Shown one piece after another: positions 5,770 through 34,542 of a DNA stretch of 64,000 bases. The notes under the pieces were generated by a model. It was not told the DNA's origin. It worked only from the letters and a program-made list of their open reading frames with translations, and searched no databases. Numbering within the stretch: the stretch's first letter is position 1; each line of letters begins with the position of its first letter. Made by a program: the position numbers and the translations under genes. The stretch lies in contig NZ_WJIE01000003.1 of NCBI RefSeq assembly GCF_009649845.1, positions 682,001-746,000 on the forward strand, given 5' to 3'. The DNA comes from Polyangium spumosum (GTDB taxonomy: Bacteria > Myxococcota_A > Polyangia > Polyangiales > Polyangiaceae).

Positions 5770-7217
5770 TAGAACCACCTCTCGATGACGATCTTGCGCT
5801 CGGTGTAGAAATCGACGCCGGCGGCGCCGTGGGCCTTCGTGTCGCCGTAGAGGCTCGCCTTCTGGCCGCCGAACGGGAAGAAGGCCATGGGCGCCGCGAC
5901 GCCGATGTTCACGCCGACCATGCCCGCCTCGACGCGCGCGCCGAACTCACGCGCGGCCTTGCCATTCGTCGTGTAGATGCTCGACGCGTTGCCGTATTCG
6001 CTCGCATTCGCGAGCCGGATGGCCTCGTCGAGGTCCTTCGCCCGCATGAAGCAGGCGACCGGCCCGAAGATCTCCTCGCGCCCGATCACCATGTCGGGGC
6101 GCACGCCCTCGAAGATCGTCGGCCCGATCCAGTTGCCGTCCGGAAGGCCGTCGACCGTCGCGTTCCGGCCGTCGAGCACGAGCTTCGCGCCCTCTTGCAG
6201 GCCCTTCTCGATGTACGAGAGGACCTTGTCCTTGTGCGCCCGCGAGACCACGGGGCCGAGCGTGGTGCCCGGGTTCTTGCCGTCGCCGAGCACGATCTTC
6301 TTCGTGTACTCCACGAAGAGGTCGCGCACGCGCTCGTACGCGTCGCCGACGGGGACGATCACGCTGCCCGCGAGGCAACGCTGGCCCGCGCACCCGTAGC
6401 AGCTCTCGACCGCGTTCTGCACCGCGCGCTCCATGTCCGCGTCGGGCATGATCACGATGAAGTTCTTCGCGCCGCCGAGCGCCTGCACGCGCTTGCCGGT
6501 CTCGCCGCACTTCCGGTAGACGATCTTCGCGACGTTCGACGAGCCGACGAACGAGACGCCCTTCACGTCCGGGTGCTCGCAGATCGCCTCGACGACCTCA
6601 CGGCCGCCGTTCACCAGGTTCACGACGCCGTTCGGCAGGCCGACCTGTCCGATGAGCTCGAAGATGCGCTTCTGCGAGAGCGGCACCTGCTCGCTCGGCT
6701 TGAGCACGAAGGTGTTGCCCGCGGCGATCGCGTACGGCAGGAACCAGAGCGGCACCATCGGCGGGAAGTTGAAGGGCGTGATCGCCGCGAAGACGCCGAG
6801 CGGCTGGCGCAGGACCTTCGTGTCGATGCCCGTGGCGACGTTCTCGAGGTGGTCGCCCATGAGCAGCGCGGGGATGCCACACGCGTGCTCGACGTTCTCG
6901 ATGCCGCGGCCGAAATCGTTGAACGACTCGGAGAACGTCTTGCCATGCTCGCTCGTGCAGATGTTCGCGATCTCCTCGCGGTGCTGGTCGAAGAGGTTCT
7001 TCAGCTTGAAGAGGTAACGCGCGCGCTGCACCGGCGGGACGGCCCGCCACGCGGGGAACGCAGCCTTGGCCGCCTGCACCGCGGCGTCGACGTCCGCCGA
7101 GGTCGAGAGCGGGACCTTGGCGAGAAGCTCGCCGGTCGCGGGGTTCTTCACGTCGAGCAACGTGGTGCCCGCAGAAGCAACCCAGGCGCCGTTGATGAAG
7201 TTCTCGAGCACGCGCAT
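5769..7217 (-). CDS. mmsA: CoA-acylating (methyl)malonate-semialdehyde dehydrogenase
   Basis: 482 aa from the ATG at 7217, chosen because an AGGAGGAGG ribosome-binding site (7229-7237) precedes it; the open frame upstream lacks family similarity. It converts malonate semialdehyde (from beta-alanine) to acetyl-CoA, or methylmalonate semialdehyde (from thymine) to propionyl-CoA. Aldehyde dehydrogenase motifs: FTPFNFPPMVP-type cofactor segment (TPFNFPPMVPLWFLP), GVSFVGSS nucleotide-binding turn, and the catalytic cysteine C281 in YGCAGQRCLAG. It is the first gene of the catabolic operon, with the promoter presumably in 7218-7482. Confidence 0.93.
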   Translation of the reverse strand: MRVLENFINGAWVASAGTTLLDVKNPATGELLAKVPLSTSADVDAAVQAAKAAFPAWRAVPPVQRARYLFKLKNLFDQHREEIANICTSEHGKTFSESFNDFGRGIENVEHACGIPALLMGDHLENVATGIDTKVLRQPLGVFAAITPFNFPPMVPLWFLPYAIAAGNTFVLKPSEQVPLSQKRIFELIGQVGLPNGVVNLVNGGREVVEAICEHPDVKGVSFVGSSNVAKIVYRKCGETGKRVQALGGAKNFIVIMPDADMERAVQNAVESCYGCAGQRCLAGSVIVPVGDAYERVRDLFVEYTKKIVLGDGKNPGTTLGPVVSRAHKDKVLSYIEKGLQEGAKLVLDGRNATVDGLPDGNWIGPTIFEGVRPDMVIGREEIFGPVACFMRAKDLDEAIRLANASEYGNASSIYTTNGKAAREFGARVEAGMVGVNIGVAAPMAFFPFGGQKASLYGDTKAHGAAGVDFYTERKIVIERWF

Positions 7218-7482
7218 AAAACGACGATCCTCCTCCTGACGTGGGCCCTTCGCCCTTCCCCCCCGTACGCGGCCAGGTCCCGAGCCCCGACGGGGGCCCG
7301 CGCGCAAGGCACGCCGAGCACAATCAACCGTGATTTTCTCCCCGCGACAAGGCCCAAGGGCGAACCCCGGCGCCCGAGCCCCGATGCCGCCCCGCGTCGT
7401 TCGCGCGGGCACGGTTCGGGCGTCGCAGGCATGGCGCGGGCGCTTGCGAGCGCGCCCAGGATGCTCTTACGCTGTGCCGCAC

Positions 7483-8736
7483 ATGATGGGGGCCGAAGTT
7501 TCCGCGTTCCGACGAGCGATGATCGAGCGGCGCCCAGGGATCCTCGCGCGCCTCGAACGAACGAGCGCGGAGCCCGCGTCGACCGAAGCCGAGAAGGACG
7601 ACACGTCGTCCCTCCGCGAGGAGCTCGCCGCGAGCTTCGACGCGTGGATCGACGCGACCGAGAGCCTGGATCCAGGCGCGCTCGAGGCGTGGGTCGAGCA
7701 CATCGGCGAGGCGGCGGAGGCGCGCGGCGGCGACACGCGCGGGGTGCTGCGGCGACTCGAACGCGCGGGACAAGCGCTGCTCGACGCGGCGCTCGAGGCC
7801 CTGGAGCAGGGCGTGCCGGGCGCGGACACGGGGGCGCGGCGGCTCGTCGGCGCGATGAACACGGCCGCGGCCGCCTTCAATCGAGCGTTCCGCGCGGAGG
7901 CCGAGGAGGGCGCGCGGCGCGCGACGGTGCTGCGCGCGGTGACGGAGAACGCGCCCGACGGGATCGGGATCGCCAGGGCCGACGGGACGGTGGTGTACGC
8001 GAACCCGGCGTTCTGCGCGATGATGGGCTCGGAGGAGGCGTCACGCGGGCACTTCGCGGATTTCGTGCACCCGGACGAGCACACGAAGCTCGCGCAGATG
8101 GCGGAGATCGCCGAGCGCACCGGGAACTGGGAGGGCTGCCTGCGCTACCAGCGCGCGGACGGGACGTCGTTCAACGCGCAGCTCAAGGCGTTCCGGGTGA
8201 GGTCGGAGGCCGGCGAGACGATCGCGCGGTGCGTGCTCGTGCGCGACGCGACGGCGGAAGAGCGGGCCGCGGCGGAGCGGCGCGCGCTCGAAGAGGAGAT
8301 CCAGAAGGCGCAGGCCGCGGCGCTGCGAGAGCTCGCGGCGCCGCTCTTGCCGCTCGCCGAGGGGGTGCTCGCGATGCCGCTCGTCGGCTCGCTCGACGCG
8401 TCGCGGACGCCGCGGATCATCGAGCTGATGCTCGAGGGGATCACGCGGACGGGCGCGGGGCACGTGATCGTGGACATCACGGGCGTGCCCGTGGTGGACG
8501 CGGAGGTGGCCGAGTCGCTCGTGCGCGCGGCGAGGGCCGCCGAGCTCGTGGGCGCGGAGGTGGTGCTGACGGGCGTACGCGGCGCGGTGGCGAAGACGCT
8601 GGTCGACCTCGACGTGGACCTCGGCGGCATGGACACGTGGAGCACGCTGCGCGCGGGCGTGGCGCACGCGATCGGGCACGAGCGGCAGAAGCGGCAGATG
8701 CGACGGAAGGGCCGCGGAGCAGGGCCGAGCCGATGA
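7483..8736 (+). CDS. PAS-STAS signalling protein (RsbR-like), first of a pair
   Basis: 417 aa from the first of two adjacent ATGs; the frame upstream is low-complexity and probably untranslated. Order: an N-terminal helical region (1-145), a PAS domain (about 147-262, with ENAPDGIGIARADGTVVYANP), a short coiled linker, and an RsbR-type STAS domain (288-400, with HVIVDITGVPVVDA). Such proteins form stressosome scaffolds phosphorylated on STAS threonines. The position matching the first RsbR phosphothreonine is alanine here (A340), while the second is kept (T372). It overlaps the next gene by 4 nt (ATGA). Confidence 0.85.
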   Translation: MMGAEVSAFRRAMIERRPGILARLERTSAEPASTEAEKDDTSSLREELAASFDAWIDATESLDPGALEAWVEHIGEAAEARGGDTRGVLRRLERAGQALLDAALEALEQGVPGADTGARRLVGAMNTAAAAFNRAFRAEAEEGARRATVLRAVTENAPDGIGIARADGTVVYANPAFCAMMGSEEASRGHFADFVHPDEHTKLAQMAEIAERTGNWEGCLRYQRADGTSFNAQLKAFRVRSEAGETIARCVLVRDATAEERAAAERRALEEEIQKAQAAALRELAAPLLPLAEGVLAMPLVGSLDASRTPRIIELMLEGITRTGAGHVIVDITGVPVVDAEVAESLVRAARAAELVGAEVVLTGVRGAVAKTLVDLDVDLGGMDTWSTLRAGVAHAIGHERQKRQMRRKGRGAGPSR

Positions 8737-9962
8737 GCGAGCGCGCGGATACGAAGCTCGACCCGTTCGCGGCGGCGTTCGCCGCCCGAAGGGAGATGCT
8801 CGTCGATCGGCTGACGAGAGAGGCGCTGTCGGCGCTCGGCGGGACGCTCGGGGCCACGCTCGAGAGCTTCCGCGCCGATCGCGAGATCGAGGTCGACATC
8901 GCCATCGCGGCGATCCACGACGGCAGCAGGCCCTTCGCGGTCGAGAGCTGGCGGCGCTGGATCGACGGCTCGGTGCAGCGCGGCTACTCGGCGTCGACGA
9001 TGCAGGGCGTGCTCGGCGCGATGCGGCAGGTCTTCGTCGACGTGGCGCTCGAGCTCCGCGCGTCGGGCGTCCCGGGGGCGACGTCGCGGATCCGCGCGTT
9101 CATCCGCTCGTCGAGCGACGCGCTCTCCCTGATCGACGACGAGCTGCGCGCGCGGGCGGAGCTCGTGCACAAGAAGACGCGGATCTTCGGGGCACTGATC
9201 GAGAACGCGCCGGACGGGATGGGGGTGGCGGCCCCGGACGGGACGTTGCTCCACGTGAACCCGGCGCTCGCGCGGCTGCTCGAGCGGGACGACCTCCCGG
9301 GGCACTCGATCTACGAGCTCGTGGCGAAACACGCGGAGCCGATCCACCGCGAGCAGGTGGCGAAGGCGGTGATGGAGCATGGCTCGTGGAGCGGGGAGCT
9401 CACGTACCAGCGCGCGAGCGGCGAGACGTTCGACGCGCACGTGACGGCGTTCCTCGTGCGCGACGCGCGAGGCCGCGGCATCGCGCGGTGCGCGATCATC
9501 CGGGACCTGACGGCGGCGCGGCGCGCGGAGGAGGAGCGGCGGCGGCTCGCCTCCGAGGTGATCGCGGCGCAGAGGGCGGCGCTCGAGGAGCTCGGGACGC
9601 CGCTCGTTCCGATCGCGGAGGGCGTGCTCGTGATGCCGCTCGTCGGGGTGCTCGAGCCGTCGCGGGCCGAGCGGATGCTCGGGGTGCTGCTCGAAGGCAT
9701 CGGGCGCGAGGACGCGCGGGTGGTGATCCTCGACCTGACGGGCGTAAAAGAGGCGAGCACGGAGGCGGCCGAGGCGCTCGTGCGCGCGGCGCAGGCGGCG
9801 CGGCTGCTCGGCGCCGAGGTGGTCGCGACGGGGACGGGGCCGGAGCTCGCGCGGACATTCGTGGAAAATGGGGCGGAACTAGGAATCATCGTGACGAAGG
9901 GCACGCTGCGCGACGGGGTCGCGTATGCGCTCCGCGTGGCCCGGGGGCACGAGCGCCGCTGA
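8733..9962 (+). CDS. PAS-STAS signalling protein (RsbR-like), second of a pair
   Basis: 409 aa. It is a paralogue of the preceding gene and translationally coupled to it (ATGA). An N-terminal helical domain (10-145) is followed by PAS (about 150-265, with ENAPDGMGVAAPDGTLLHVNP) and an RsbR-type STAS domain (288-400, with VVILDLTGVKEAST). Both threonines at RsbR phosphosite positions are present (T343, T375), unlike its partner. No RsbS or RsbT homologue follows, so a classic stressosome module is incomplete in this window. Confidence 0.85.
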   Translation: MSERADTKLDPFAAAFAARREMLVDRLTREALSALGGTLGATLESFRADREIEVDIAIAAIHDGSRPFAVESWRRWIDGSVQRGYSASTMQGVLGAMRQVFVDVALELRASGVPGATSRIRAFIRSSSDALSLIDDELRARAELVHKKTRIFGALIENAPDGMGVAAPDGTLLHVNPALARLLERDDLPGHSIYELVAKHAEPIHREQVAKAVMEHGSWSGELTYQRASGETFDAHVTAFLVRDARGRGIARCAIIRDLTAARRAEEERRRLASEVIAAQRAALEELGTPLVPIAEGVLVMPLVGVLEPSRAERMLGVLLEGIGREDARVVILDLTGVKEASTEAAEALVRAAQAARLLGAEVVATGTGPELARTFVENGAELGIIVTKGTLRDGVAYALRVARGHERR

Positions 9963-10079
9963 TTGTTTTTGCTCCAACGAGCTTCGCCCACGGCGCATCA
10001 TTACCATTACATTCGAAGCACGAATGCGTCGGCATTGGGGTATTCGTGAAACGGACGCTCGGTGGTAACTTCTGTGTCC

Positions 10080-10733
10080 ATGAAACACCTCACGATGTTC
10101 CTGCTCCTGACGGTGGGTTCGTTCTCTCTCATTGGCTGCGGCGGCCCCATGGAGGCAGAGGACGAATACGCGGACGTTGAGACCGAGGAAATGGACGAGG
10201 CTTTGGGGGAGGGCCTCTTCGTCGAGGAAGACGAGAACACGAAGGAGTTTGCCCCCGAGGAGGACGCGGCGGATCTCGTGGCGTGGTGCGACGACGTGGT
10301 GAGCTGGAACCAGGCCTGGAGCGATTACGAGGCGCAGGTGCTGACGCTGGTGAACCAGAAACGCGCGGCCGGCGCGACCTGCGGCGGCGTGAAGTATGCG
10401 CCCGCGCCGCCCTTGACGCTCGACGACCGGCTGCGGTGCGCGGCGCGCAAGCATTCGAAGGACATGGGCGTGAAGAATTTCTTCAGCCACACCGGGTCGA
10501 ATGGGTCGACGCCCTGGCAACGCATCAAGAGCGCAGGCTACACGTACACGCAGGCGGCCGAGAACATCGCCGCCGGGTATTCGACGCCGTCGGCGGTGGT
10601 CACGGGCTGGATGAACAGCTCGGGACATTGCAAGAACATCATGAAGTCTTCCCTCAAGCACCTCGGCGTGGGGTATTACGAGGGGACGGTCGGATACAAG
10701 AAGTACTGGACGCAGGATTTCGGGAAGCAGTAG
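10080..10733 (+). CDS. CAP/SCP-domain lipoprotein
   Basis: 217 aa starting MKHLTMFLLL, with a lipoprotein signal ending in the lipobox LIGC, then an acidic Glu/Asp-rich linker (about 22-65). A CAP (SCP/PR-1) domain fills the rest. The recognisable histidines are in CAARKHSKDM, FFSHTGSNGSTPWQR and NSSGHCKNIM, with the AENIAAGY segment between. Bacterial CAP proteins are exported and their biochemical role is mostly unknown. The start was preferred over a GTG six codons earlier because it begins the signal peptide. The repeat array follows its stop. Confidence 0.9.
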   Translation: MKHLTMFLLLTVGSFSLIGCGGPMEAEDEYADVETEEMDEALGEGLFVEEDENTKEFAPEEDAADLVAWCDDVVSWNQAWSDYEAQVLTLVNQKRAAGATCGGVKYAPAPPLTLDDRLRCAARKHSKDMGVKNFFSHTGSNGSTPWQRIKSAGYTYTQAAENIAAGYSTPSAVVTGWMNSSGHCKNIMKSSLKHLGVGYYEGTVGYKKYWTQDFGKQ

Positions 10734-10799
10734 CCGCGCCGGCCGTGGGGCGGGGTCGACGGCGACCCCGTCCACCGGGTCGATCGACCCGGTCGAGAG

Positions 10800-10973
10800 G
10801 GTCGAAGACCGGGTCGAGACCTTCGATCAAAGGTCTCGAGGGGGTCGATCGAAGGTCTCGAGGAGGTCGAAGACCGGGTCGAGACCTTCGATCAAAGGTC
10901 TCGAGGGGGTCGATCAAAGGTCTCGAGGAGGTCGACGACCGGGTCGAGACCTTCGATCGACCGGGTCGAGGGG
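10800..10973. repeat. Tandem 65-bp repeat array with internal perfect stem-loops
   Basis: Two full units (10800-10864, 10865-10929) differ by about one base; a third partial unit (10930-10973) ends in the 49-bp sequence shared with 16108-16156. Each full unit contains the inverted repeat TCGAGACCTT / AAGGTCTCGA separated by 6 nt, so it can form a strong hairpin. Related GGTCGA-rich sequence extends left to about 10755. No open frame with coding character crosses it. Confidence 0.9.
10925..10973. repeat. Left copy of 49-bp direct repeat flanking the island
   Basis: Identical at 48 of 49 positions to 16108-16156 in the same orientation; the mismatch is T10957 versus G16140. Identity stops sharply on both sides. 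The two copies enclose 5134 bp. It is embedded in the GGTCGA array, so it is either a target-site or recombination duplication, or one more copy of a dispersed array element. Confidence 0.85.
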
Positions 10974-10985
10974 TAGTGGGCAGTT
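10972..10985 (+). repeat. Left 14-bp inverted repeat (GGTAGTGGGCAGTT)
   Basis: Its reverse complement matches AACTGCCCATTACC at 16090-16103 at 13 of 14 positions. The pair face each other at the inner edges of the two arrays, as terminal inverted repeats of a mobile element would. The inner part also belongs to a local palindrome, GGGCAG-TT-CTGCCC, at 10978-10991. Confidence 0.6.
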
Positions 10986-11008
10986 CTGCCCAACCGACCC
11001 CGAACGCC

Positions 11009-11044
11009 GGGACGGCGGGGCATCCTGCGACACCCCGCCGTCCC
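11009..11044 (-). terminator. Perfect 12-bp stem-loop after the 11050-11256 gene
   Basis: GGGACGGCGGGG (11009-11020) and CCCCGCCGTCCC (11033-11044) pair perfectly around a 12-nt loop, 5 nt beyond the stop codon of the minus-strand gene. There is no T-run after it, so it may act as a Rho-assisted terminator or mRNA-stabilising hairpin rather than a canonical intrinsic terminator. Confidence 0.6.
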
Positions 11045-11049
11045 CTCGA

Positions 11050-11256
11050 TCAGTACGTTTCGAGGAAACGCCCGCGCGGTCCGTCGTCGTCGCGGACCTT
11101 CACTCTTGGCGCCGGGACGTTGCACATCGCCGCGAGTCGGTCGGTCGCTTCCTGGGTGACCTCGAAATCTCCCGCGCGCTTGTGCATCTCCCAGAGCTTG
11201 TAGAAGTGCGCCATTCGCTCGTGCAGGGGAAGGTTCTTGATCTCGTCGCTCGCCAT
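11050..11256 (-). CDS. Small hypothetical protein (68 aa)
   Basis: It starts MASDEIKNLPLHERMAHFYK with a GGAGG ribosome-binding site about 10 nt upstream, which is the reason for choosing this start over longer frames. The sequence is helical and charged, with MHKRAGDFEVTQEATDRLAA in the middle and a basic/acidic tail RVKVRDDDGPRGRF. No family is recognised. It lies at the left end of the island, points outward and is followed by a strong hairpin. Confidence 0.65.
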   Translation of the reverse strand: MASDEIKNLPLHERMAHFYKLWEMHKRAGDFEVTQEATDRLAAMCNVPAPRVKVRDDDGPRGRFLETY

Positions 11257-11695
11257 GAGGGTGATCCTCCAAAGCAGCGAGCGCGCGGAGTGCAGAACAT
11301 CGCCTTGACGGATAGCCACCCTTCCCATACACTCCTCCCGACCGTCTCTCCCAGAGAACGGATCGGGCGAGTATCGCTGGAGTGGCCGCTCCGCGTGCTC
11401 GCCTGATGTCTTTTGTTCTGCCGTCGCCCCGTGAAGGGGTACGGATGACCTAGCACGCTCCGGATTCGCCTGCACCGGAAACCGCAAGTGTTCCGCTAGG
11501 TTACTCTCATAATGAGACATTCGCCCGACTGTCCGACCTAGGACATTGCGTGTCCGACCATATCGGCGATTGATCACGAAAACACCGCGTTTCGTGATAC
11601 TCTCATCCCATCGAGTTGACCGGTCGGACGGGCGAGGATGACGCGCAGAGGGCGCGTCGGGATCCCCGGGAGACGGCGCTCGTCGGGGCTTCGCC
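11257..11695. promoter_or_regulatory. Divergent intergenic region with operator-like repeats
   Basis: 439 bp without a convincing gene, lying between the outward-pointing small gene and the transposase homologue. It contains two TGTCCGACC direct repeats 21 bp apart (11530-11538, 11551-11559), the first also forming TGTCC-N6-GGACA, and a perfect 9-bp inverted repeat ATCACGAAA-N8-TTTCGTGAT (11573-11598). The section around 11500-11600 is AT-richer than its surroundings. These look like protein-binding sites or promoters; no sigma-factor consensus is assigned. Confidence 0.5.
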
Positions 11696-12826
11696 GTGGG
11701 CAATCACCTTTCGCTTGCCGAGCGTACCGCCGTCGTTTCTCACCTCGTGGAGGGCGCCAGCGTGCGCGCAACGTCCAGGCTCACGGGCACGTGCAAGGAA
11801 GCGATCCTCTCGCTTCTCGTGCGGGTCGGCGAGGGCTGCGATCGATTGCACAATCGGCTCGTCTGCGGTTTGGATATCCGTGAAATCCAGTGCGACGAGA
11901 TTTGGTCCTACGTCGCGAAGAAGCAGGCCCGGGTGAAGCCCGAGGATCCGGCCGAGTACGGCGACGCCTACGCGTACCTCGCGCTCGCCCGGACCAAGAA
12001 ACTGATCGTGTCCTACCGCGTGGGGAAGCGAGACGAGGCCACGACCAAGGCTTTCGTAGCGGACCTCCGCGCTCGTCTCGTGACGATTCCCGAGGTCTCC
12101 ACGGACGGTTGGCAGTCGTATCCGGTGGCGATCGGGCAGAGCTTCGGGGGCGCGGTCGACCACGCCGTGATCCACAAGGACTACTCGAAGAAGGGGCGGC
12201 GCGAGGGACCGGCGGACCACCGCTACGAACCCCCGCGGGACCCCTTCATCACGAAGAAGACCGCGCACGGTGCGCCGAACCTCGACCGCGCGAGCACGTC
12301 TCACGTCGAGCGTGCGAACCTCACGGTCCGGATGCATGTCCGCCGGTTTACGCGGCTCTGCAACGGCTTCAGCCGGAAGATCGAGAATCACCGCGCGGCC
12401 GTCGCCCTGCACGTGGCGTTCTACAACTTCGTCCGCGTGCACGAGGCGCTCCGGGTGACCCCGGCCATGGAGGCGGGGATTGCGGATCACGTCTGGACGG
12501 TGGAAGAGCTCGTCGAGCGCGCCCTAGCGGCGGCCCCGTGCGAGCCTCCCAAGCCTCGGGAGCTTGCTCCGGCGGCTGCCGCCCCGGGAGCGAAGCCGAG
12601 CGCCGCCAGGAAGCTCCCGGACGGCAAGGGATGGCTCCGGGTCATCGACGGAGGCAGGGCCCCGTCAAATCAGGCGCCGAAGCCCCCGCCGCCTCCGGTT
12701 CCCGTCCGATACCCGACGCCGCACGTGGACGACCACGAGGCGCGATGGGAGCAGATGGATCTTCTCGCGTGGCGCGAGCGGGAGAAGCGGCTTGCGTTCT
12801 TCGACGAGGAACCCGAAGACGAGTAG
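11696..12826 (+). CDS. IS1-family-type DDE transposase homologue with a C-terminal extension
   Basis: 376 aa from GTG. An N-terminal HTH segment (LAERTAVVSHLVEGASVRATSRL) is followed by the IS1-type catalytic core: D67 in CDEIWSYV, D137 in STDGWQSY and E205 in TSHVERANLTVRM. The conserved RRFTRLCNGFSRKIENH and YNFVRVHEALRVTPAM segments come next. Residues 281-376 are a Pro/Ala-rich tail that I do not associate with this family. No terminal inverted repeats hug the gene, and it ends 3 nt before the convergent XRE gene, so it may be resident or domesticated rather than an active insertion sequence. Confidence 0.85.
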   Translation: MGNHLSLAERTAVVSHLVEGASVRATSRLTGTCKEAILSLLVRVGEGCDRLHNRLVCGLDIREIQCDEIWSYVAKKQARVKPEDPAEYGDAYAYLALARTKKLIVSYRVGKRDEATTKAFVADLRARLVTIPEVSTDGWQSYPVAIGQSFGGAVDHAVIHKDYSKKGRREGPADHRYEPPRDPFITKKTAHGAPNLDRASTSHVERANLTVRMHVRRFTRLCNGFSRKIENHRAAVALHVAFYNFVRVHEALRVTPAMEAGIADHVWTVEELVERALAAAPCEPPKPRELAPAAAAPGAKPSAARKLPDGKGWLRVIDGGRAPSNQAPKPPPPPVPVRYPTPHVDDHEARWEQMDLLAWREREKRLAFFDEEPEDE

Positions 12827-12829
12827 GCG

Positions 12830-13114
12830 TCAGCGCCATCCCTGCGTCCTCTTGCGCGGTCTGCCGGGCTTTGCTTCGGGAAGTGTTGCTTTTCGGAAGA
12901 GCCTCCCGGGAGGCACGCCGAGCGCGCCCGCGAGCGCCACGATCACGGCGACGCCGACGTTGGTCTGACCACGCTCGACCCGCTGAAGGAAGCGAAGATC
13001 GAGTTCCGCGGCCTCGGCGAGTTGTTCCTGCGTGAGCCCGCGGGACAGGCGCAGACGGCGCACGTTCGCCCCGATGTAGCCGAGGACCTCGACGACGCGG
13101 GCGGAGCGGGTCAC
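12830..13114 (-). CDS. XRE-family HTH transcriptional regulator
   Basis: 94 aa from a GTG at 13114; the frame extends upstream but without recognisable sequence. The HTH is clear: NVRRLRLSRGLTQEQLAEAA followed by LDLRFLQRVERGQTNV and a VALAGALGVPPGRLF helix. The C-terminus is basic (KPGRPRKRTQGWR), possibly a DNA contact. It converges with the transposase homologue (3-nt gap) and diverges from the membrane protein at 13224, so it may regulate that 110-bp promoter region. Confidence 0.75.
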   Translation of the reverse strand: MTRSARVVEVLGYIGANVRRLRLSRGLTQEQLAEAAELDLRFLQRVERGQTNVGVAVIVALAGALGVPPGRLFRKATLPEAKPGRPRKRTQGWR

Positions 13115-13223
13115 CCCCGCGGGTCTACGCTGTCGTCCTCGTCGGAATAACGGCCGATACGCCGTGTTTCGTTGACCCCGACGAACCTCGGCCCTACCGT
13201 GTACGCCTCGCGTGGAGGACGAC

Positions 13224-13916
13224 ATGGAGCAGGCGAAGGACGAGAACCGGAGCAACGGTAAGACGGCGAAGGGCGAGCGGAGGTTCGTCCTATTCCTCTA
13301 CGCGGCGATCGTGCCGATCGGGCTCGTGGTTGTCTACTTCATGTTCGTGAAGCCTCCGAGCGCGGGCGTCTTCTGCTCGACGTCGAGCGGGTGCTACGAG
13401 GCCGACTTCGGCTCGGGCTTCGGCGACGGCAGCATCGCGTTCTTCCTTCCCGGCGGAGCGCGGTCGAAGCGGCTTCCGTTGGTCCGGGAGTCGCGCGGCG
13501 TCTACGGCGCGAGCTTTCTCGGCGACGCGCGGGTGCGGCTCGTCGTGGAGGACGACGATCATTTCGTGCGCGACGGCGAGACCACCTACGGGCGCTCGGC
13601 CCCGGACGACGTGCAGCGACACCTCGACGCGGCCCTTCGCGACGCTCGACGAGAACGAGAACGCGAAGACGCGGTCCGGGGCGCCGAGGAAGCCGAACAA
13701 ACGGCCAAGGTCCGGGCGAAGGAACGGCAGACGAAGATCGATTCGTTGGTCTCGATGCTCGCGGGCGCGAAGGACGAGACCGAGCGAACCGCGTTGGAGA
13801 AGCGGCTCGCCGAGGAGAGGGCGAAGCAGGCGGCCGAGGGAGGTTCCGCGCCCGCGAGCACGACGGGCAAGCCCTGCAAGTGCGAGCCGGGCGACCCGCT
13901 CTGCTCGTGCCTCTGA
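13224..13916 (+). CDS. Hypothetical single-pass membrane protein with coiled coil and Cys-rich tail
   Basis: 230 aa. The ATG at 13224 was chosen because GGAGG lies 8 nt upstream. It has a short charged N-terminus, one membrane helix (RFVLFLYAAIVPIGLVVVYF, about 20-40), then a domain with two cysteines (FCSTSSGCYEADFGSG). A long charged, probably coiled-coil stretch (about 135-205) follows, then a small-residue linker and the terminus CKCEPGDPLCSCL. No family is recognised. The Cys tail could bind metal or form disulfides; the protein probably faces the periplasm. Confidence 0.7.
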   Translation: MEQAKDENRSNGKTAKGERRFVLFLYAAIVPIGLVVVYFMFVKPPSAGVFCSTSSGCYEADFGSGFGDGSIAFFLPGGARSKRLPLVRESRGVYGASFLGDARVRLVVEDDDHFVRDGETTYGRSAPDDVQRHLDAALRDARREREREDAVRGAEEAEQTAKVRAKERQTKIDSLVSMLAGAKDETERTALEKRLAEERAKQAAEGGSAPASTTGKPCKCEPGDPLCSCL

Positions 13917-13939
13917 TTGTGCACGGGCATGATGGGAAC

Positions 13940-14113
13940 ATGCGAGAACCGAACACGCCCGAGCCCGAGCAAAGTACCAACCAACAGCCCGAACCTGCCT
14001 ACATGGCGCAGTTGCGCGAATATCAACGACGAATCGCCGACATGAAGAGCGGTCGCCTGGTCACTCGTCTTCTCGACCCGCTGGGGCAGGCGGAACCACG
14101 AACCGGACTTTGA
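13940..14113 (+). CDS. Possible small hypothetical protein (57 aa)
   Basis: It starts MREPNTPEPEQSTNQQPEPA and continues with a charged helix MAQLREYQRRIADMKSGRL. It lies 23 nt after the membrane protein gene and its end overlaps the convergent gene at 14061 by about 50 bp. The ribosome-binding site is weak (GATGGGA). It may be real and co-transcribed with 13224-13916, but coding evidence is thin. Confidence 0.35.
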   Translation: MREPNTPEPEQSTNQQPEPAYMAQLREYQRRIADMKSGRLVTRLLDPLGQAEPRTGL

Positions 14114-14390
14114 TGTCCAGACCCAAGAACGCTTCTTCGACGAACGCTTGCACGAGTTCTAGCGTCTGGTTCTGGTTCAGCGGGCGGATCTGCATCTCGC
14201 CCGTTTCCAGCGCCGTCGGGTATCCGGGCACTTTCGGCGAGAGAGCTATGTTCTGAACGATGGACGTGTGCGTCGCGTCCATCCCAGCCAGCACGGCTTC
14301 GGCGTAGGCCATCACCGCCACGGCCAGCGTCTTGTGCTCCAGAGGCATCTCGCGGATGCCTCGCCCGTCGATCGTTACGGTGAAGATCAC
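14061..14390 (-). CDS. Hypothetical protein (109 aa)
   Basis: It starts at a GTG, reading (M)IFTVTIDGRGIREMPLEHK. The rest is mixed alpha/beta: LAVAVMAYAEAVLAGMDA, a hydrophilic middle, then LELVQAFVEEAFLGLDIKV and RFVVPPAPAGREDE. No family is recognised. It lies 64 nt after the sigma-like gene on the same strand and is probably the last gene of that operon. No good ribosome-binding site is visible, so the start is uncertain. Confidence 0.55.
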   Translation of the reverse strand: MIFTVTIDGRGIREMPLEHKTLAVAVMAYAEAVLAGMDATHTSIVQNIALSPKVPGYPTALETGEMQIRPLNQNQTLELVQAFVEEAFLGLDIKVRFVVPPAPAGREDE

Positions 14391-14454
14391 GCCCGGCGCA
14401 TACGCCGGATCGGGGCCGGCAGGTAGTCGGACCGTATGCGCCGGGCGCGCCCGT

Positions 14455-15045
14455 TCAGCGCTTTTGCTTCCGGTTCTTCCGCGTGGGGTGTGGAGCCTGC
14501 TTCGGGGGAGCCGCGCCGAGCTTCTGGAGGGCGGCGCGAAGCTTCTTCTCGTGGGCGTGGAAGGTCGCCCGGTGCTGGCCTGCCTCTCGCGCCGCGTCGG
14601 CCCCGATGAGCCCGCGGGCGGCGAGTTCTACGACGTGGGCGACCTTTGGGCTCGACGCCATGACCTTTGCGAGCACGTCCCGCGCCTCGATCGCGTGCGT
14701 CGGGTCCGGCGACACGAGGATCGGAACGTCCCGAAGCGAGGACACGGGGACCTCGCGCCCGGAGCCGCGCCGCGAGAGGTTCATGGCGTGGAACCACGCC
14801 GTCTGTCGCGCGAACCCCTGAAACGCAGCCGCGGGGGGCGTCTTCTCCCCGCCCCGCACGCGTCCCTCGCCGAGCGCGATCCACGTCGTGATCATCGTCT
14901 CCTGCACGACGTCGTCCGCGTGCCGCCGTTCCACGCCGAGCGCGAGGGCATGGCGAAGGAGCATCGGGCGCATGGCCTCGATGTCCTCCGCGTCCGCCTC
15001 TACGATCGGCGCGCCCCCGCCGGGGGAGGCGCGGTACCGGATCAC
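14455..15045 (-). CDS. Sigma-70-family (ECF-like) RNA polymerase sigma factor
   Basis: 196 aa from a GTG that overlaps the upstream stop by 4 nt (GTGA). Region 2 is recognisable from the LRHALALGVERRHADDVVQET helix and its VVQETMITTW end, resembling the DLVQETFL core-binding motif. A C-terminal region 4-like HTH is suggested by VELAARGLIGADAAREAGQ and HRATFHAHEKKLRAALQKL. The tail is very basic (KNRKQKR). The family call is moderate because region 4 is divergent. It is the fourth gene of a tightly overlapping operon with three HTH-like genes, so a self-contained regulatory circuit is plausible. Confidence 0.7.
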   Translation of the reverse strand: MIRYRASPGGGAPIVEADAEDIEAMRPMLLRHALALGVERRHADDVVQETMITTWIALGEGRVRGGEKTPPAAAFQGFARQTAWFHAMNLSRRGSGREVPVSSLRDVPILVSPDPTHAIEARDVLAKVMASSPKVAHVVELAARGLIGADAAREAGQHRATFHAHEKKLRAALQKLGAAPPKQAPHPTRKNRKQKR

Positions 15046-15302
15046 GTCCCGTCACCCCGGATCAGGGCGTCGAGATCGACCCGGAGCACGCGCGCCACGC
15101 GTGACGCGAAAAGCAGCGTGCAGTGGATCTCGCCGTGGAGAACGGCGCGCACGTACTGCCGGGCGAAGCCGAGCATCTTGGCCGACTCCCGCGCCGTCCG
15201 CGCCGCGACGTAGGGCGCAAGCGCCTTCCGAACGCGCGCCGCCTGCGCTTCCGTGAGGACCGCGGGCAAGCTCTCCGGGGCCTTGTCCTGGGGCTCGGTC
15301 AC
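15042..15302 (-). CDS. HTH-like DNA-binding protein, third of a tandem trio
   Basis: 86 aa from a GTG overlapping the upstream stop by 4 nt (GTGA). The core reads TARESAKMLGFARQYVRAVL, then HCTLLFASRVARVLRVDLDALIRGDG, a pattern of HTH followed by the last helices of a Cro/CI-type fold. It shares this layout with the two genes upstream. It could recruit or control the sigma-like factor it is coupled to. The family assignment is by pattern only. Confidence 0.6.
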   Translation of the reverse strand: MTEPQDKAPESLPAVLTEAQAARVRKALAPYVAARTARESAKMLGFARQYVRAVLHGEIHCTLLFASRVARVLRVDLDALIRGDGT

Positions 15303-15604
15303 GAGGCGCCTCCCTTCCGCTTCGGGGACGCCACGAGGGAGAGCACGGGAGCCTTGCGGGGCGGCGCCTTCCCGGCGAGGGCATCGTCGAGCGTGAGCCC
15401 TACGGCACGGGAGATGCTCCGCGCGAGCGCCATGTTGCCGGGGTTCGTGCCGTCGCAGAACGCGAGGACCACGTACCGGCGGAAGCCGATCTTGTGGGCC
15501 ACGAGGATCCAGGAACCGAGCTCCCGGTGAAGGTGGCGAAGCAGGGCGCGGAGGTTCGCCCGCTGGATCTCGACGAGACCCCCGGGGTAGAGGGGAGCGG
15601 CCAT
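15299..15604 (-). CDS. HTH-like DNA-binding protein, second of a tandem trio
   Basis: 101 aa from the ATG at 15604, which overlaps the upstream stop by one base (TGATG). HTH-like core: ILVAHKIGFRRYVVLAFCDG, then MALARSISRAVGLTLDDALAGK. The N-terminal MAAPLYPGGLVEIQRANLRA is unique to this copy, and the tail is Lys/Pro-rich. The C-terminal pattern (small-residue helix, then G-(I/L)-x-(L/V)-(D/E)-x-(A/V)-L-x-G) matches both neighbours. Confidence 0.6.
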   Translation of the reverse strand: MAAPLYPGGLVEIQRANLRALLRHLHRELGSWILVAHKIGFRRYVVLAFCDGTNPGNMALARSISRAVGLTLDDALAGKAPPRKAPVLSLVASPKRKGGAS

Positions 15605-15936
15605 CACGACGCGCCTCCCTTCCGCCCGCAAAGGGCGCACGCGCCGGCCACATGAGGCTTACCGGAAAGGACTTGCTCGACGGGGATGCCGCCCGCTCGC
15701 GCGAGGAGCACGGCGACGGCGTAGGAGGATCCGCGGCGGATGTTGTTGAGCGCGTCCTTCGAGACGCCCATCACGGCGGCGAGCACGTCCCGCCCGCCGT
15801 AGGCGCGGGCGATGTTGCGCTCGGCGGCTCGCATGCGGGCGCGCTCGGTTCGGGAGGGGAAGAGAGCGGGGCTCTTCCGCGCGGAAGGCGGACGAGTCCC
15901 TTGGCCCTCGCGACGAGGGTGTACTAGACGAAGCAT
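15604..15936 (-). CDS. HTH-like DNA-binding protein, first of a tandem trio
   Basis: 110 aa with a GGAG ribosome-binding site upstream. A basic N-terminal region (about 1-35) is followed by the HTH-like core AAERNIARAYGGRDVLAAVM, GVSKDALNNIRRG and YAVAVLLARAGGIPVEQVLSGK. CALCGRK near the C-terminus provides a CxxC. It is the first gene of the overlapping operon, so the operon promoter should lie between 15937 and the array at 16104. Confidence 0.6.
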   Translation of the reverse strand: MLRLVHPRREGQGTRPPSARKSPALFPSRTERARMRAAERNIARAYGGRDVLAAVMGVSKDALNNIRRGSSYAVAVLLARAGGIPVEQVLSGKPHVAGACALCGRKGGAS

Positions 15937-16089
15937 CGGGTGGCTCCTCGTGAGATGAGGTGGCTGCCAAGTCGCCCCGTGGGATTGAGTAGGTCCCCCG
16001 GGGCGGCGCCTTTCTCAGGCACGCCGACCCTACGCCCCGCGATCGCCCGGCGCTACGGCATTACGCCGAAACCGCCCACCGATTACGAA

Positions 16090-16103
16090 AACTGCCCATT
16101 ACC
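16090..16103 (-). repeat. Right 14-bp inverted repeat (AACTGCCCATTACC)
   Basis: The partner of 10972-10985 at 13/14 identity in inverted orientation. It directly abuts the right GGTCGA array. A degraded relative, ACCGCCCACCGATTACG, lies just to its left. Confidence 0.6.
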
Positions 16104-16178
16104 GGTCGAGGAGGTCGACGACCGGGTCGAGACCTTCGAGCGACCGGGTCGAGGGGGTCGAGCGACCGGGTCGAGGAG
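16104..16178. repeat. Right GGTCGA-rich array, including the right 49-bp direct repeat (16108-16156)
   Basis: It contains the palindrome GGTCGACGACC and three CGACCGGGTCGAG-type units. Positions 16108-16156 repeat 10925-10973 at 48/49 identity. It ends 4 nt before the stop codon of the RloB-like gene, so it may also serve as that operon's 3' structure. Confidence 0.85.
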
Positions 16179-16182
16179 ATCC

Positions 16183-16824
16183 TCAGCGAGCGCCGCCTGC
16201 GCGGATCGACTCGGTCAGCGCGGGAACCCCGGTGCTCGGGTTCCTGCCGGGGCTCCCGTGCCGCGCCGCCTCTTCCGCGAGCTCTCGCGCCCTTCGCAGG
16301 GCGTCTTCGTAGCCTGCGTGGATCCGATCGAAGCTCTTGCCGTCGAGGACCTTGTCGTAGTCGGGCAGGTGTTGCCGCATCATCGACTGCGCCTTGTGCC
16401 GGTGGATGTGCGCCCGCTGGTCCTGGAAGTGCAGGAGCAACCACAACTCGAAGCAGGGGTTCGACACGGCCATCCGGATCGAGCTCTCGGTGGCGGCCTT
16501 CTGCGCGGCTTCGAGGTTCGGATGCTCGTCGACGTCGATGACGGCCCAGACCTCGTTCCAGAGGAGGTTCTCGTCCTTCTCCTCCTTCGCTCGCTGCGCG
16601 GCGATGTCGCGTTCGCGCTTGGCGATCTCGACGACGGTCACGGGGACGCCCGTCTCTCGGGCGACTTCGACGTGCACCAGAGGGTTCTTCACCTTCTGCC
16701 TGAACGCGCTGAAGTAGTGGCGCTCCGTCGCCTTTCCCTCGGCGACGATGAGGATCCGGTGCTTGGGCTCGCGCTTCGGCTTGTGCCGACGGATGTCGGC
16801 GTCGCGGCGTCCTCGGGAGACCAC
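16183..16824 (-). CDS. RloB-family protein (TOPRIM-like nuclease), putative anti-phage effector
   Basis: 213 aa from a GTG two bases after the ATPase stop overlap region. Family motifs are clear: RILIVAEGKATERHYFSAF (E29), VWAVIDVDEH (D97, D99) and SNPCFELWLLLHF (121-133), which I recognise from RloB/AbiLii-type proteins. E29 with D97/D99 would be the metal-binding residues of a TOPRIM fold. It is coupled to the AAA gene upstream, the arrangement of RloA-RloB and AbiLi-AbiLii, and analogous to AriA-AriB of PARIS. Nuclease activity and toxicity are inference from those systems. The 3' end abuts the right repeat array. Confidence 0.85.
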   Translation of the reverse strand: MVSRGRRDADIRRHKPKREPKHRILIVAEGKATERHYFSAFRQKVKNPLVHVEVARETGVPVTVVEIAKRERDIAAQRAKEEKDENLLWNEVWAVIDVDEHPNLEAAQKAATESSIRMAVSNPCFELWLLLHFQDQRAHIHRHKAQSMMRQHLPDYDKVLDGKSFDRIHAGYEDALRRARELAEEAARHGSPGRNPSTGVPALTESIRAGGAR

Positions 16825-16825
16825 G

Positions 16826-18073
16826 TCAATCCCCCTTCGCGAGGAGGTCCCCGAGGAACGGGATGGCGCCGTAGCGACCCTGGAGGTATCCCCGCTCGAT
16901 GTTCTCCTGCTGCTTGGGATGGAAGTCCGTGAGCGGGTAGAGGTGCGTCGCGCCGGCCTGGTCCTTCTCGGTGAACCAGATCTGATCACGCCGCAGAGGT
17001 GGCTCGCCGAGGGTGTTGCCGAGCAGGTTGGTGTCGTGCGTGGTGAACACGAGCTGCGCGCCGTGGGGGTTGTGCTTCGGATCGTTGAAGAGGCGCAGGA
17101 GCTCGAGCGCGAGCTTCGGGTGCAGGCTGGCTTCGAGCTCGTCGATGCAGAGGAGACCGCCGCCCGCGAGCACATCGAGGAGCGGAACTGCGATGTTGAG
17201 GAGCGCGACGGTGCCGGCGGATTGCGCAGACAGAGGTAACCAGACCTCTCGTGCGGGGTCTTCCGCACGATGCATGAACAACAACTTCTGCTTCTCGATT
17301 TTGATATCCTTGATGCCAATGTCCGCAGACTGGAGCAAGCGCCGGATCGATTCGCGTTGACGTTCCCGGACGTCGAGCTCGGACTCGATATCGGAGAACA
17401 AAGATAGCTGCCGCTCTGCACCGAAAATTCTGCGAAGGAGCTGCGCTCGTGCAGGAATGCTCGGCGTGGCTCCCTGATGGAACTCGAACCACATACTCCC
17501 AAACCAACCGTAGAGCGGTCGCAACAACCGGTGATTGTTTTGCGCCGCGGCAGACAAGAACAAACTATTGCCGCGGGTCAGGGAGGCGATGACTTCATTG
17601 TTTTCGTCGGCCAGTTGGTCACCAAACTCGAACGTTTCCCCCTTTCGCTCGAAAGCGACCCGGGCCTCGCCATCGAGAAACGTGTACAACCACTCCTCCT
17701 CGATGGCGGCGGAGTCCAGGACGAAGCCATATCGGTGCCTCTTGCCATCCAGCAGGAAGTCGACCTCGAACAATGATGACTCGGTCGCCTTGTCGGAAAG
17801 CGCAAAGGGCTCCTGGGGCGTACCACCCTCCGGCTCCCAGAGGCGCTGCGATGTGATCACCACCTCGCGCATGAAACCCATCGCGCCAACGACGTTGGTT
17901 TTCCCCGAAGCATTCGCCCCATAAAGCGCCACCGCGGGGAGGAGCGCTTCCTCGAACCCCGGGACCCGGATCAGCCGCGGGTCCGCCGGATCGAGCGTGC
18001 TGTCCGCGACGAGCGAGAGCGTCTGCTCGTCCCGCAGCGACCGGTGGTTCTCCACGCGGAACTGGATCAACAT
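16826..18073 (-). CDS. ABC-type AAA ATPase (RloA/AbiLi-like), partner of the RloB protein
   Basis: 415 aa from the ATG preceded by GGAGGCGCC. The N-terminal MLIQFRVENHRSLRDEQTLS is the typical opening of this ATPase family. Walker A GANASGKTN (52-60), an ABC-like signature LSAQSAGT (281-288), Walker B LLCIDELEASLHP (307-319, catalytic E312) and switch histidine H346 in TTHDTNLL are present. A helical insert fills about 200-265. In related systems such an ATPase senses infection and restrains a nuclease partner. The stop codon is within 2 nt of the RloB start. Confidence 0.88.
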   Translation of the reverse strand: MLIQFRVENHRSLRDEQTLSLVADSTLDPADPRLIRVPGFEEALLPAVALYGANASGKTNVVGAMGFMREVVITSQRLWEPEGGTPQEPFALSDKATESSLFEVDFLLDGKRHRYGFVLDSAAIEEEWLYTFLDGEARVAFERKGETFEFGDQLADENNEVIASLTRGNSLFLSAAAQNNHRLLRPLYGWFGSMWFEFHQGATPSIPARAQLLRRIFGAERQLSLFSDIESELDVRERQRESIRRLLQSADIGIKDIKIEKQKLLFMHRAEDPAREVWLPLSAQSAGTVALLNIAVPLLDVLAGGGLLCIDELEASLHPKLALELLRLFNDPKHNPHGAQLVFTTHDTNLLGNTLGEPPLRRDQIWFTEKDQAGATHLYPLTDFHPKQQENIERGYLQGRYGAIPFLGDLLAKGD

Positions 18074-18179
18074 GGCGCCTCCGGCGGTCTTAACCCCTTC
18101 GCCCACGAAGGCGCAAGCGACATCCAGGCCAGGTTCACGCTACCCGGCAGGTCGCCGCCCAGGACGCTCCCTCCCTCGC

Positions 18180-32187: not shown

Positions 32188-34542
32188 TTACGCGCCGATG
32201 CTCCGACGCACGCGCTCCACGGCGTTGCCGAGCTGGCGCATGGTCTGCTCCTGGATCCGCGCCGCCTCCTCGATCTTCTTCGAGGCCTCGAGGAGCTGCT
32301 CGAAGCCGCGGTTCTGGTTGCGCTGCGAGGCGTTCAGGTTGTTGACCATCGCGGAGATCTGCTCGATCGAGCTCGTCATCTGACGGCCGCCGCGGGCCTG
32401 CTCCTGGCTCGATCGCTCCACGTGCTGGGTGATCGTGCGCATCTTCTCTGCGCTCTTCATGATGAGCTCCGAGCCGCGCGCCTGCTCGGCCGTGGCCGCC
32501 GCGATCTGCTGCACGGTCTCGGCGATGCGGCCGATCGCGTCGGTGACCTGCTTCGACCCCTTGGCCTGCTCGACCGTGGCGCGCGCGATGGCGCGCACCA
32601 TGTTCGTGCTCTTCTGCGAGCTGTCGAGGATCTTCTTCAGCGCGCGCTCGGCCTCGTTCGAGACCTCGACGCCCCGGTCGACGTTGTGCGCGCCGCGCTC
32701 GACGGCGGCGATCGCGTTCTTCGACTCGGCCTGGATCGTCTTGATGAGGTCCGCGATCTCCTTCGTGCTGCCGCCCGCGCGATCCGCGAGCTCCTTGATC
32801 TCGTCGGCGACGACGGCGAAACCCTTGCCGTGCTCGCCGGCCTGCGCCGAGAGGATGGCGGCGTTCAGCGCGAGCAGGTTCGTCTGCTCGGCGACGTCGT
32901 CGATGACCGCGAGGATCTGGCCGATCGCCTCGATGCGGAAGCCGAGGTTCGAGATGACGCTCACGGCCTCCTGGCTCGACTCCTTGATGCGGTAAATCTC
33001 GCTGATCGTCTTCAGGATCGCCTCGGCGCCCTTCTCGGCGTCCATGGCGACCTCCTCGGACAGACGCGCCGTCTCGTTCGCGTTCGACTGGACCTGATCG
33101 ATGGACACGTCCATCTGGTTCATCGAGGAGCTCGTCTCCTCCGCCGTCAGCGAGAGGCCGTCGACGTTCTTCGCGACCTCGCGGATCGAGTAGGCCATCT
33201 CCTCGATCGAGGAGACCGTCTCGCGCACGCTCGCCGCGAGCTCACCGACGTTCTCGGCGACCTCGTCGCTCGTCGCCGTCATCTCGAGGATGCTCGACGA
33301 GCTCTCCTCCGCGCTCGTCGCGAGCATCTCGATCGACTGCGAGAAGCTCGAGAGCGAGGCGTTGATGTCGCGCGCGTGCGCCGTCGCCTGCTCGGCCGAC
33401 GCGAGCACGGTGCCGAGGCCGTCGCCGAGCCGCGGCAGGTACTCGTCGATGACGCCGAGGGCCTCGCCGAGCTCCGAGCGCCGCTTCTGCTCGCGTTGCT
33501 CCGAGCCCGCGAGGCGCTCGCCGATCGACGCGAGCTCCATGTAGATCCGCGCGACCTCGGGCTTCGCGCCCACCGGCGCGCGCACGCGCTCGCCCTCGCC
33601 CGCGCGCTGCACGGCGTTGACGATCTCGCCCTCGAGGATCTGCATCGCCTCGGCGAGCTCTGCGCGGCGCTTCTGCTCGCGCTGCTCGGCCTGCGTGAGC
33701 CGCTCGCCGATCTGCGCGAGCTCCATGAAGATGCGGGCCACCTCCGGCTTCGCGCCGGGCGGGGGACGAACACGCTCGCCCTCGGCGACGCGCTGGACCG
33801 CGTCGACGACGTCGGACTCGACGGTCGCGAGCAGCTCGGCGAGCTCGCTCTTGCGCTGGACCTCGCGTTGCTCGGCCGTGCTCGCGCGTTGCTCGGCGGT
33901 GGCGAGGTTCTGCTCCGCGGCGACAGCGCGCGACTCGGCGGCCGAGATCCGCGCCTCGAGCGACTGGAGCCTCTGCTCGGCGCTGCCGGCGCGTTGCTCG
34001 GCGGCGCTCGCGCGCTCCTCGGCGAGCGAGACCTTCTTGTCCGCGTCCTTCGTCGCGTCGCGGACAACCTCGGCCACGCCCGAGAGCTCGGCGTAGATGC
34101 GCGCCATCTCGGGCTTCGCGCCCGCGGGAGCGCGCACCCGCTCGCCGGACGCGGCGCGACCGAGGGCCTCGATCACCTCGTCGACGTTCACGCTGCTCGT
34201 GCCCGCGTTTTGCTCGAGCTTCGCGACCTCTTCGTTGAGGTCCGCGGTCTTCTTCGAGAGACGCTGGATCTCGTCGTAGACCTCCGCGAGCTCACCGGTC
34301 ACGCCTTCGGGCGTCGCCAGCTTCTTGCCGCGGGCCGCGGCTTTCAGCGCCTCGACGAGCCCGCCGAGCTTGACGTTCGCGCCCTTCGACGCGCTCGCGA
34401 CGAACATCGCGGCCGCGGCGCCGAGGCCTAACAGGTAGAAGAGCTCGGACGAGAAGTCCCTGAGGAAGGACTTGGATCCGATGCCGAAGAGGACGGCGGC
34501 GACGAGGACGACGGCGGGGGGGCCGAGCTGCCTTGAGTTCAT
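32188..34542 (-). CDS. Methyl-accepting chemotaxis-type protein with four HAMP-like units
   Basis: 784 aa. Two short N-terminal membrane helices (about 8-20 and 34-50) with no periplasmic sensor domain between them. Four ~43-residue HAMP-like units at about 60-102, 121-163, 244-286 and 304-346 share GERVRAP-x-GAKPE and AR-I-ELA motifs, separated by coiled coil. The MCP signalling domain follows with its tip at 552-581 ([22 protein letters not shown]). It presumably senses cytoplasmic or membrane state and signals to CheA; no che genes are adjacent. Confidence 0.88.

Follow-up and report, generated by a model that had tools for sequence, protein, structure and literature searches.

A probable multigene IS1-related transposon within a 21- to 22-bp tandem array of Polyangium spumosum

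In the window (the whole 64,000-nucleotide stretch of the Polyangium spumosum genome that was analysed), a segment of about 5 kb carries two sets of repeats at its borders, which raises the question of whether it is a mobile element and, if so, which of these repeats belong to it. Sequence comparison confirmed both sets as originally described: a 49-bp pair in direct orientation (positions 10925 to 10973 and 16108 to 16156, 48/49 matching) and a 14-bp pair in inverted orientation (10972 to 10985 and 16090 to 16103, 13/14 matching). Exact matches to GGTARTGGGCAGTT occur at two places only in the 10.76-Mb genome, namely, at both ends of the element, and the 14-bp pair is therefore far beyond chance. 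The 49-bp match exceeds chance only because both copies sit in one tandem array with periods of 22, 43, and 65 bp; its left copy takes in 2 bp of the element end, and its right copy begins within an 8-bp duplication. It is the 14-bp inverted ends and this duplication, GGTCGAGG, that are functional, and not the 49-bp repeats. The latter had been proposed as the frame of the unit and instead are adjacent units of the array in which the element landed.

The element itself spans window positions 10972 to 16103 (5,132 bp). On its left, the target array (10763 to 10971, with the same 22/43/65-bp periods by TRF) ends in one copy of the duplication (10964 to 10971), which is followed by the left terminal inverted repeat GGTAGTGGGCAGTT (10972 to 10985, plus strand). 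On its right, the terminal inverted repeat GGTAATGGGCAGTT (16090 to 16103, minus strand) meets the second copy of the duplication (16104 to 16111), where the right target array begins (16104 to 16178, 22-bp period by TRF). In a target this repetitive, a short repeat at the borders would by itself prove little, and both copies were examined with a phase test. When one 8-bp copy was removed, the flanks rejoined in phase with a 43-bp lag and 98% identity; when both copies were kept, the lag was 51 bp, a length that does not correspond to any array period. The 14-bp ends, the duplication, and the phase bear out the idea of a transposed unit with an IS1-type transposase inside a repeat array, and insertion of the element is secure. 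An orthologous empty site was sought in five congeneric genomes, in which the upstream CAP-domain gene is kept and the array is absent.

The gene content begins with a 68-amino-acid (aa) element-specific open reading frame (ORF) without a family match (11050 to 11256, minus strand), followed by the IS1-related DDE transposase (376 aa; 11696 to 12826, plus strand). Toward the other end, four overlapping genes form an operon on the minus strand (14455 to 15936). Its first gene, which adjoins the right (R) end, encodes small HTH protein c (15604 to 15936), followed by small HTH proteins b (15299 to 15604) and a (15042 to 15302), all three of family F0, and by the conserved operon member of family F2 (14455 to 15045), an ECF-sigma-like protein with a PDB profile match to CnrH (1.1e-12) and Foldseek matches to ECF sigmas. 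The slot between transposase and operon holds variable cargo, which in the window consists of three passengers: an XRE/Cro-type HTH regulator that is not conserved among elements (12830 to 13153, minus strand; HTH_3, 1.3e-12), a 234-aa ORF with a hydrophobic N-terminal stretch (13212 to 13916, plus strand), and a 109-aa ORF (14061 to 14390, minus strand). An Rfam search gave no match, and a promoter and terminator scan yielded one weak promoter-like site and terminators at chance level. The R ends of most elements share a similar GC-rich leader between the end and the operon (GGCGCCGCCCCG ... CGGGGCGAC; window 15940 to 16070), which could form a hairpin.

We placed the transposase by profile matches, alignment, and predicted structure. 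It matched Pfam DDE_Tnp_IS1 (PF03400) with 36.1 bits against a curated cut-off of 24.1, and this model matched the transposases of 34/34 elements delimited here; D67, D137, and E205 are invariant in the transposase alignment. The predicted structure has a confident three-helix HTH (residues about 7 to 55) before an RNase-H-like core, with the ISCth4 transposase as the best match. With the NCBIfam IS1 equivalog, the score was 56 bits, below the cut-off of 100, and the match began at model position 45, past the N-terminal part; the alignment contains no conserved N-terminal cysteine set. Matches to IS6 models were marginal (16.5 bits versus a cut-off of 125), and an IS1595-type transposase matched weakly in only 1 of the 34 elements. 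The window ends fit GGnnnTG (GGTAGTG and GGTAATG), and some relatives have GGTNNCG. The element is thus IS1-related by its transposase, ends, and duplication, and we do not file it in the IS1 family because its size, its single ORF, the lack of a zinc finger, and an equivalog score below the cut-off depart from that family. The element does not fit a composite transposon: there is a single transposase with only the 14-bp ends and without two flanking IS copies. In line with the original description, in which no integrase or resolvase was seen, no tyrosine or serine recombinase was found among the ORFs scanned. The accompanying suggestion of an unusual mechanism did not hold, in that, together with the 14-bp ends and the 8-bp duplication, one IS1-related DDE transposase is enough to account for mobility; what is unusual is which targets are chosen.

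The window element belongs to a family. Including it, we delimited 34 elements across Polyangium and a single related genome; the window's own genome accounts for 17 of them, and Sorangium holds further elements beyond these 34. The own genome encodes 16 transposase homologues with 44 to 76% identity, others occur in all five congeneric genomes examined, and a scan of the genome collection gave matches in Polyangium, Sorangium, a Byssovorax metagenome-assembled genome (MAG), and a few distant MAGs. Ends were found for 17/17 own-genome homologues, for 16 other elements with duplications, and for one without; homologues that lay at a contig end or whose own ends were unclear (L063, L076, and L077) were left out. 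Among the 33 elements with duplications, these were exact 8-bp copies in 31, 9 bp in one, and 7/8 in one, the duplication match being part of the criteria by which elements were found. The closest relative, also by its ends (L058, 9529 to 13374), has a transposase 79% identical to that of the window and the same half-site ends around a different cargo slot. Together with the plan shared by the other delimited elements, it answers the earlier expectation of the same ends around different cargo. It is the element that lacks a duplication; a swapped-flank inversion was considered as the cause, and the expected flank was not seen. At the same locus (L058, 9529 to 18085 onward), two elements lie with their R ends facing, the first being the one without a duplication, and a third is inserted in the roughly 100-bp spacer.

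The elements range from 2.7 to 5.8 kb, and their only universal components are the transposase and F0, the sole accessory family found in 34/34 elements. An accessory operon is likewise present in 34/34 elements and in Sorangium. Larger elements add F2, and most smaller ones add F3, a protein of 83 aa; the Sorangium elements keep F2 and HTH homologues. At weak scores, an order-wide search with F2 runs over into ordinary ECF sigma factors. The most divergent element (L087, 6675 to 11733) has its operon beside one end in the opposite layout and a half-site pattern unlike the rest. In MAGs of proteobacteria and Chloroflexota, distant relatives of IS1-like type (L146 and L147) have GGTAGTGTCC / GGTACTGTCC ends and 8-bp duplications and no array.

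The elements have asymmetric ends in common: one carries a palindrome, and the other repeats the half-site of that palindrome in direct orientation at a distance of 20 bp. The palindrome, a plan common to most relatives, lies just inside GGTNN and consists of inverted half-sites; in the window element, this left (L)-type end is TGGGCAG-tt-CTGCCCA (10977 to 10992). At its R end, the inner half-site (16072 to 16078, TGGGCGG on the minus strand) is 20 bp from the outer half-site (16092 to 16098), which falls within the right terminal repeat. Half-sites vary from element to element, and within an element the two ends mostly carry matching ones. Half-site similarity followed the recognition helix of the transposase HTH, which sits in the predicted three-helix fold (r=0.82), and did so after catalytic-domain divergence was removed (partial 0.68, permutation p 5e-4); the catalytic domain added little to half-site prediction (0.10). 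The pairs of helix and half-site are SLPT with TGATCAA, SKPT or SKPA with YGGTCAA, CKEA with TGGGCAG, RET with TGGCCGG, HRDT with TGTCCTA, QQKT with TGCGGTA, and DRKT with TGGGGTA. The F0 proteins were rejected as end-binders, since half-sites do not follow F0 (partial -0.07). Apparently, then, the end half-site tracks the N-terminal recognition helix as a natural recognition code, in which the helix would bind the half-site.

We then asked where these elements insert. The family strongly prefers tandem arrays with a period of about 21.25 bp, which received 26/33 insertions overall and 16/17 in the own genome; array periods at the insertions were multiples of this unit (21, 43, 64, 85, 106, and 127). 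In a 400-kb sample, arrays with 21-multiple periods accounted for 0.70% of all bases and for 2.1% of those in noncoding DNA. The own-genome array insertions represent 12 separate arrays among 13 loci, for which our own arithmetic against the sampled 0.70% background gives a binomial probability of about 2e-25. An earlier phase score with a freely varying lag was uninformative when ranked and was replaced by the fixed test with one copy removed. In that test, the junction lag was a multiple of 21.25 bp at 26/26 sites (mean deviation, 0.42), and with both copies kept it was in phase at 0/26. In Sorangium, all five elements with ends found (5/5) sit in 22/42- to 44-bp arrays. DDE transposases of other families in the own genome were beside a comparable phased array at 0/11 loci; one other-family locus (L180) adjoins a low-complexity repeat. 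Single array positions were used repeatedly: the CGCCCACG position by four elements with different transposases (L078, L085, and twice in L086) and the CTACGACG position by four more with different transposases, three of them in L081. In L081 (5723 to 15031), one CTACGACG array holds three different elements, each with an identical duplication. Units similar to the window array are also present at other places in the genome (on contigs C9, C5, and C25), so the original concern that the repeats recur without this cargo was correct for the array units; it does not count against the element, as the array is merely its target.

Seven of the 33 insertions lie outside phased arrays. Four (L064, L069, L071, and L073) are inside or beside dispersed palindromic repeats. 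In L064, L071, and L073, three different elements occupy one position of the dispersed palindromic repeat GATGAACTGCGCA-TGCGCAGTTCATC next to AGCGC-GCGCT, and L069 is inserted in a similar hairpin. The L083 insertion is in a palindrome; a long run of irregular repeats (TCCCCCGAGGTCTCGCGGCC..., many about 130 to 190 bp apart) surrounds this element (7210 to 17937). The insertions in L066 and L070, without a phased array, are left unexplained. The site average of dyad symmetry is highest at the duplication center (9.4 versus 6.2 pairs, permutation p about 1e-5), with echoes at -21 and +21. Dyad symmetry alone does not explain the choice of arrays because any symmetric strand transfer would give a weak dyad. 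Elements without F2 or F3 still use arrays; therefore, neither is required, and F2 is unlikely to be the targeting protein.

Very probably, then, the segment is a multigene IS1-related DDE transposon that inserted in a tandem array of about 21 to 22 bp and duplicated 8 bp. In the mechanism that we propose from sequence, the N-terminal HTH of the transposase would bind the half-sites, which face each other at the L end and run in the same direction, 20 bp apart, at the R end; the transposase would then join the two element ends to the target at positions 8 bp apart, by either copy-and-paste or cut-and-paste movement. Less surely, the target may be chosen by the transposase itself or by F0 HTH proteins binding dyads every two helical turns; a host protein on the arrays is another candidate. 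A role in regulating expression or transposition is probable for F2 and the operon. We put forward tentatively, as a possibility somewhat short of an even chance, that these elements are a distinct transposon type whose HTH proteins or transposase read dyads every two helical turns, with DNA periodicity instead of a single sequence as the target and with end recognition that evolves independently via a simple code in the transposase HTH.

Three other explanations were weighed against this transposon. An ordinary IS1-like element with chance passengers and no preference could leave the same picture if its insertions survived in neutral intergenic repeats, as the arrays are largely noncoding and insertions there should do no harm. 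Such selection is unlikely, because arrays are just 2.1% of noncoding DNA and yet hold 16/17 insertions, different transposases share the CGCCCACG and CTACGACG positions, three elements share one palindromic-repeat position, such arrays do not adjoin the transposases of other families, and the accessory operon is conserved rather than random. The direction of the association could also be reversed, with arrays made by the transposon through replication slippage or repeated insertion and loss. The window array is absent from the matching region of the five congeneric genomes, so array and element are both lineage-specific, as that reversal would have it. It is nevertheless very unlikely, given that background arrays are common (about 0.7% of DNA) in sampled regions not chosen for elements, array sequences differ between elements and lack element termini, and one array is common to several different elements. 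Least probable of all, and only barely credible, is that the segment arose without transposition, when the 49-bp repeats recombined by a homologous or site-specific route. Their 48/49 identity would suit such an origin, whereas the 14-bp inverted ends fall on the borders, the array phase is restored solely by removing exactly 8 bp, the same ends recur in unrelated contexts, and the ORFs tested included no member of an integrase family.

With 17 exactly bordered insertions in one genome, the sequence itself reveals which targets are chosen and how ends are recognised. The preference for helically phased arrays suggests that DNA is targeted by spacing or repeated dyads, the pairs of helix and half-site are simple to test as a code, and the elements raise the question of which purpose the 21-bp arrays serve in these large genomes. 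To the right of the window array, genes matching AbiLii and AbiLi, an abortive-infection pair, lie at 16183 to 18106; no relatives of the AbiLi protein were found in the five congeneric genomes. Farther along, at 33461 to 33877, is a 186-bp tandem repeat of about 2 copies with a 77 to 80% match. The open-access literature searched yielded no description of such array-targeting elements, and the main text of the Sorangium So0157-2 genome paper does not mention tandem repeats.

Each end of a Tn7/Mu-type transposon has several sites for the transposase, and such transposons also have asymmetric ends and carry accessory genes. The elements described here may work in a similar way in all three respects and differ in that the transposase is IS1-related and no AAA+ target adaptor was found in the window element. 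IS1 family members make duplications of 8 or 9 bp (PMC10425158, PMC12428005). Like E. coli IS1, our elements have the Pfam IS1 DDE core (34/34), GGnnnTG at most ends, and duplications of 8 or 9 bp. Unlike IS1, which is 740 to 1180 bp long and has insA/insB with a frameshift, they measure 2.7 to 5.8 kb (5,132 bp in the window) and have one uninterrupted ORF (376 aa in the window); the model match starts beyond the N-terminal region where IS1 has its zinc finger, and asymmetric ends, an HTH/sigma operon, and array targeting set them further apart. With IS6/IS26 they share GGnnnTG in most ends, the 8-bp duplication, and an HTH before the DDE core (PMC6807381), although the transposase matches IS6 models only marginally. 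Repeat targeting itself has precedent in ISPsy8, ISPa11, ISPpu9, ISPpu10, ISRm22, and ISRm19, which insert in REP palindromes (PMC1525189). Our elements likewise insert into dispersed noncoding repeats, and four relatives do so in or beside palindromic ones, whereas the window element sits in a tandem array. Unlike these REP-targeting elements, the family has as its main target tandem arrays with a period of about 21 bp, used by many end specificities.
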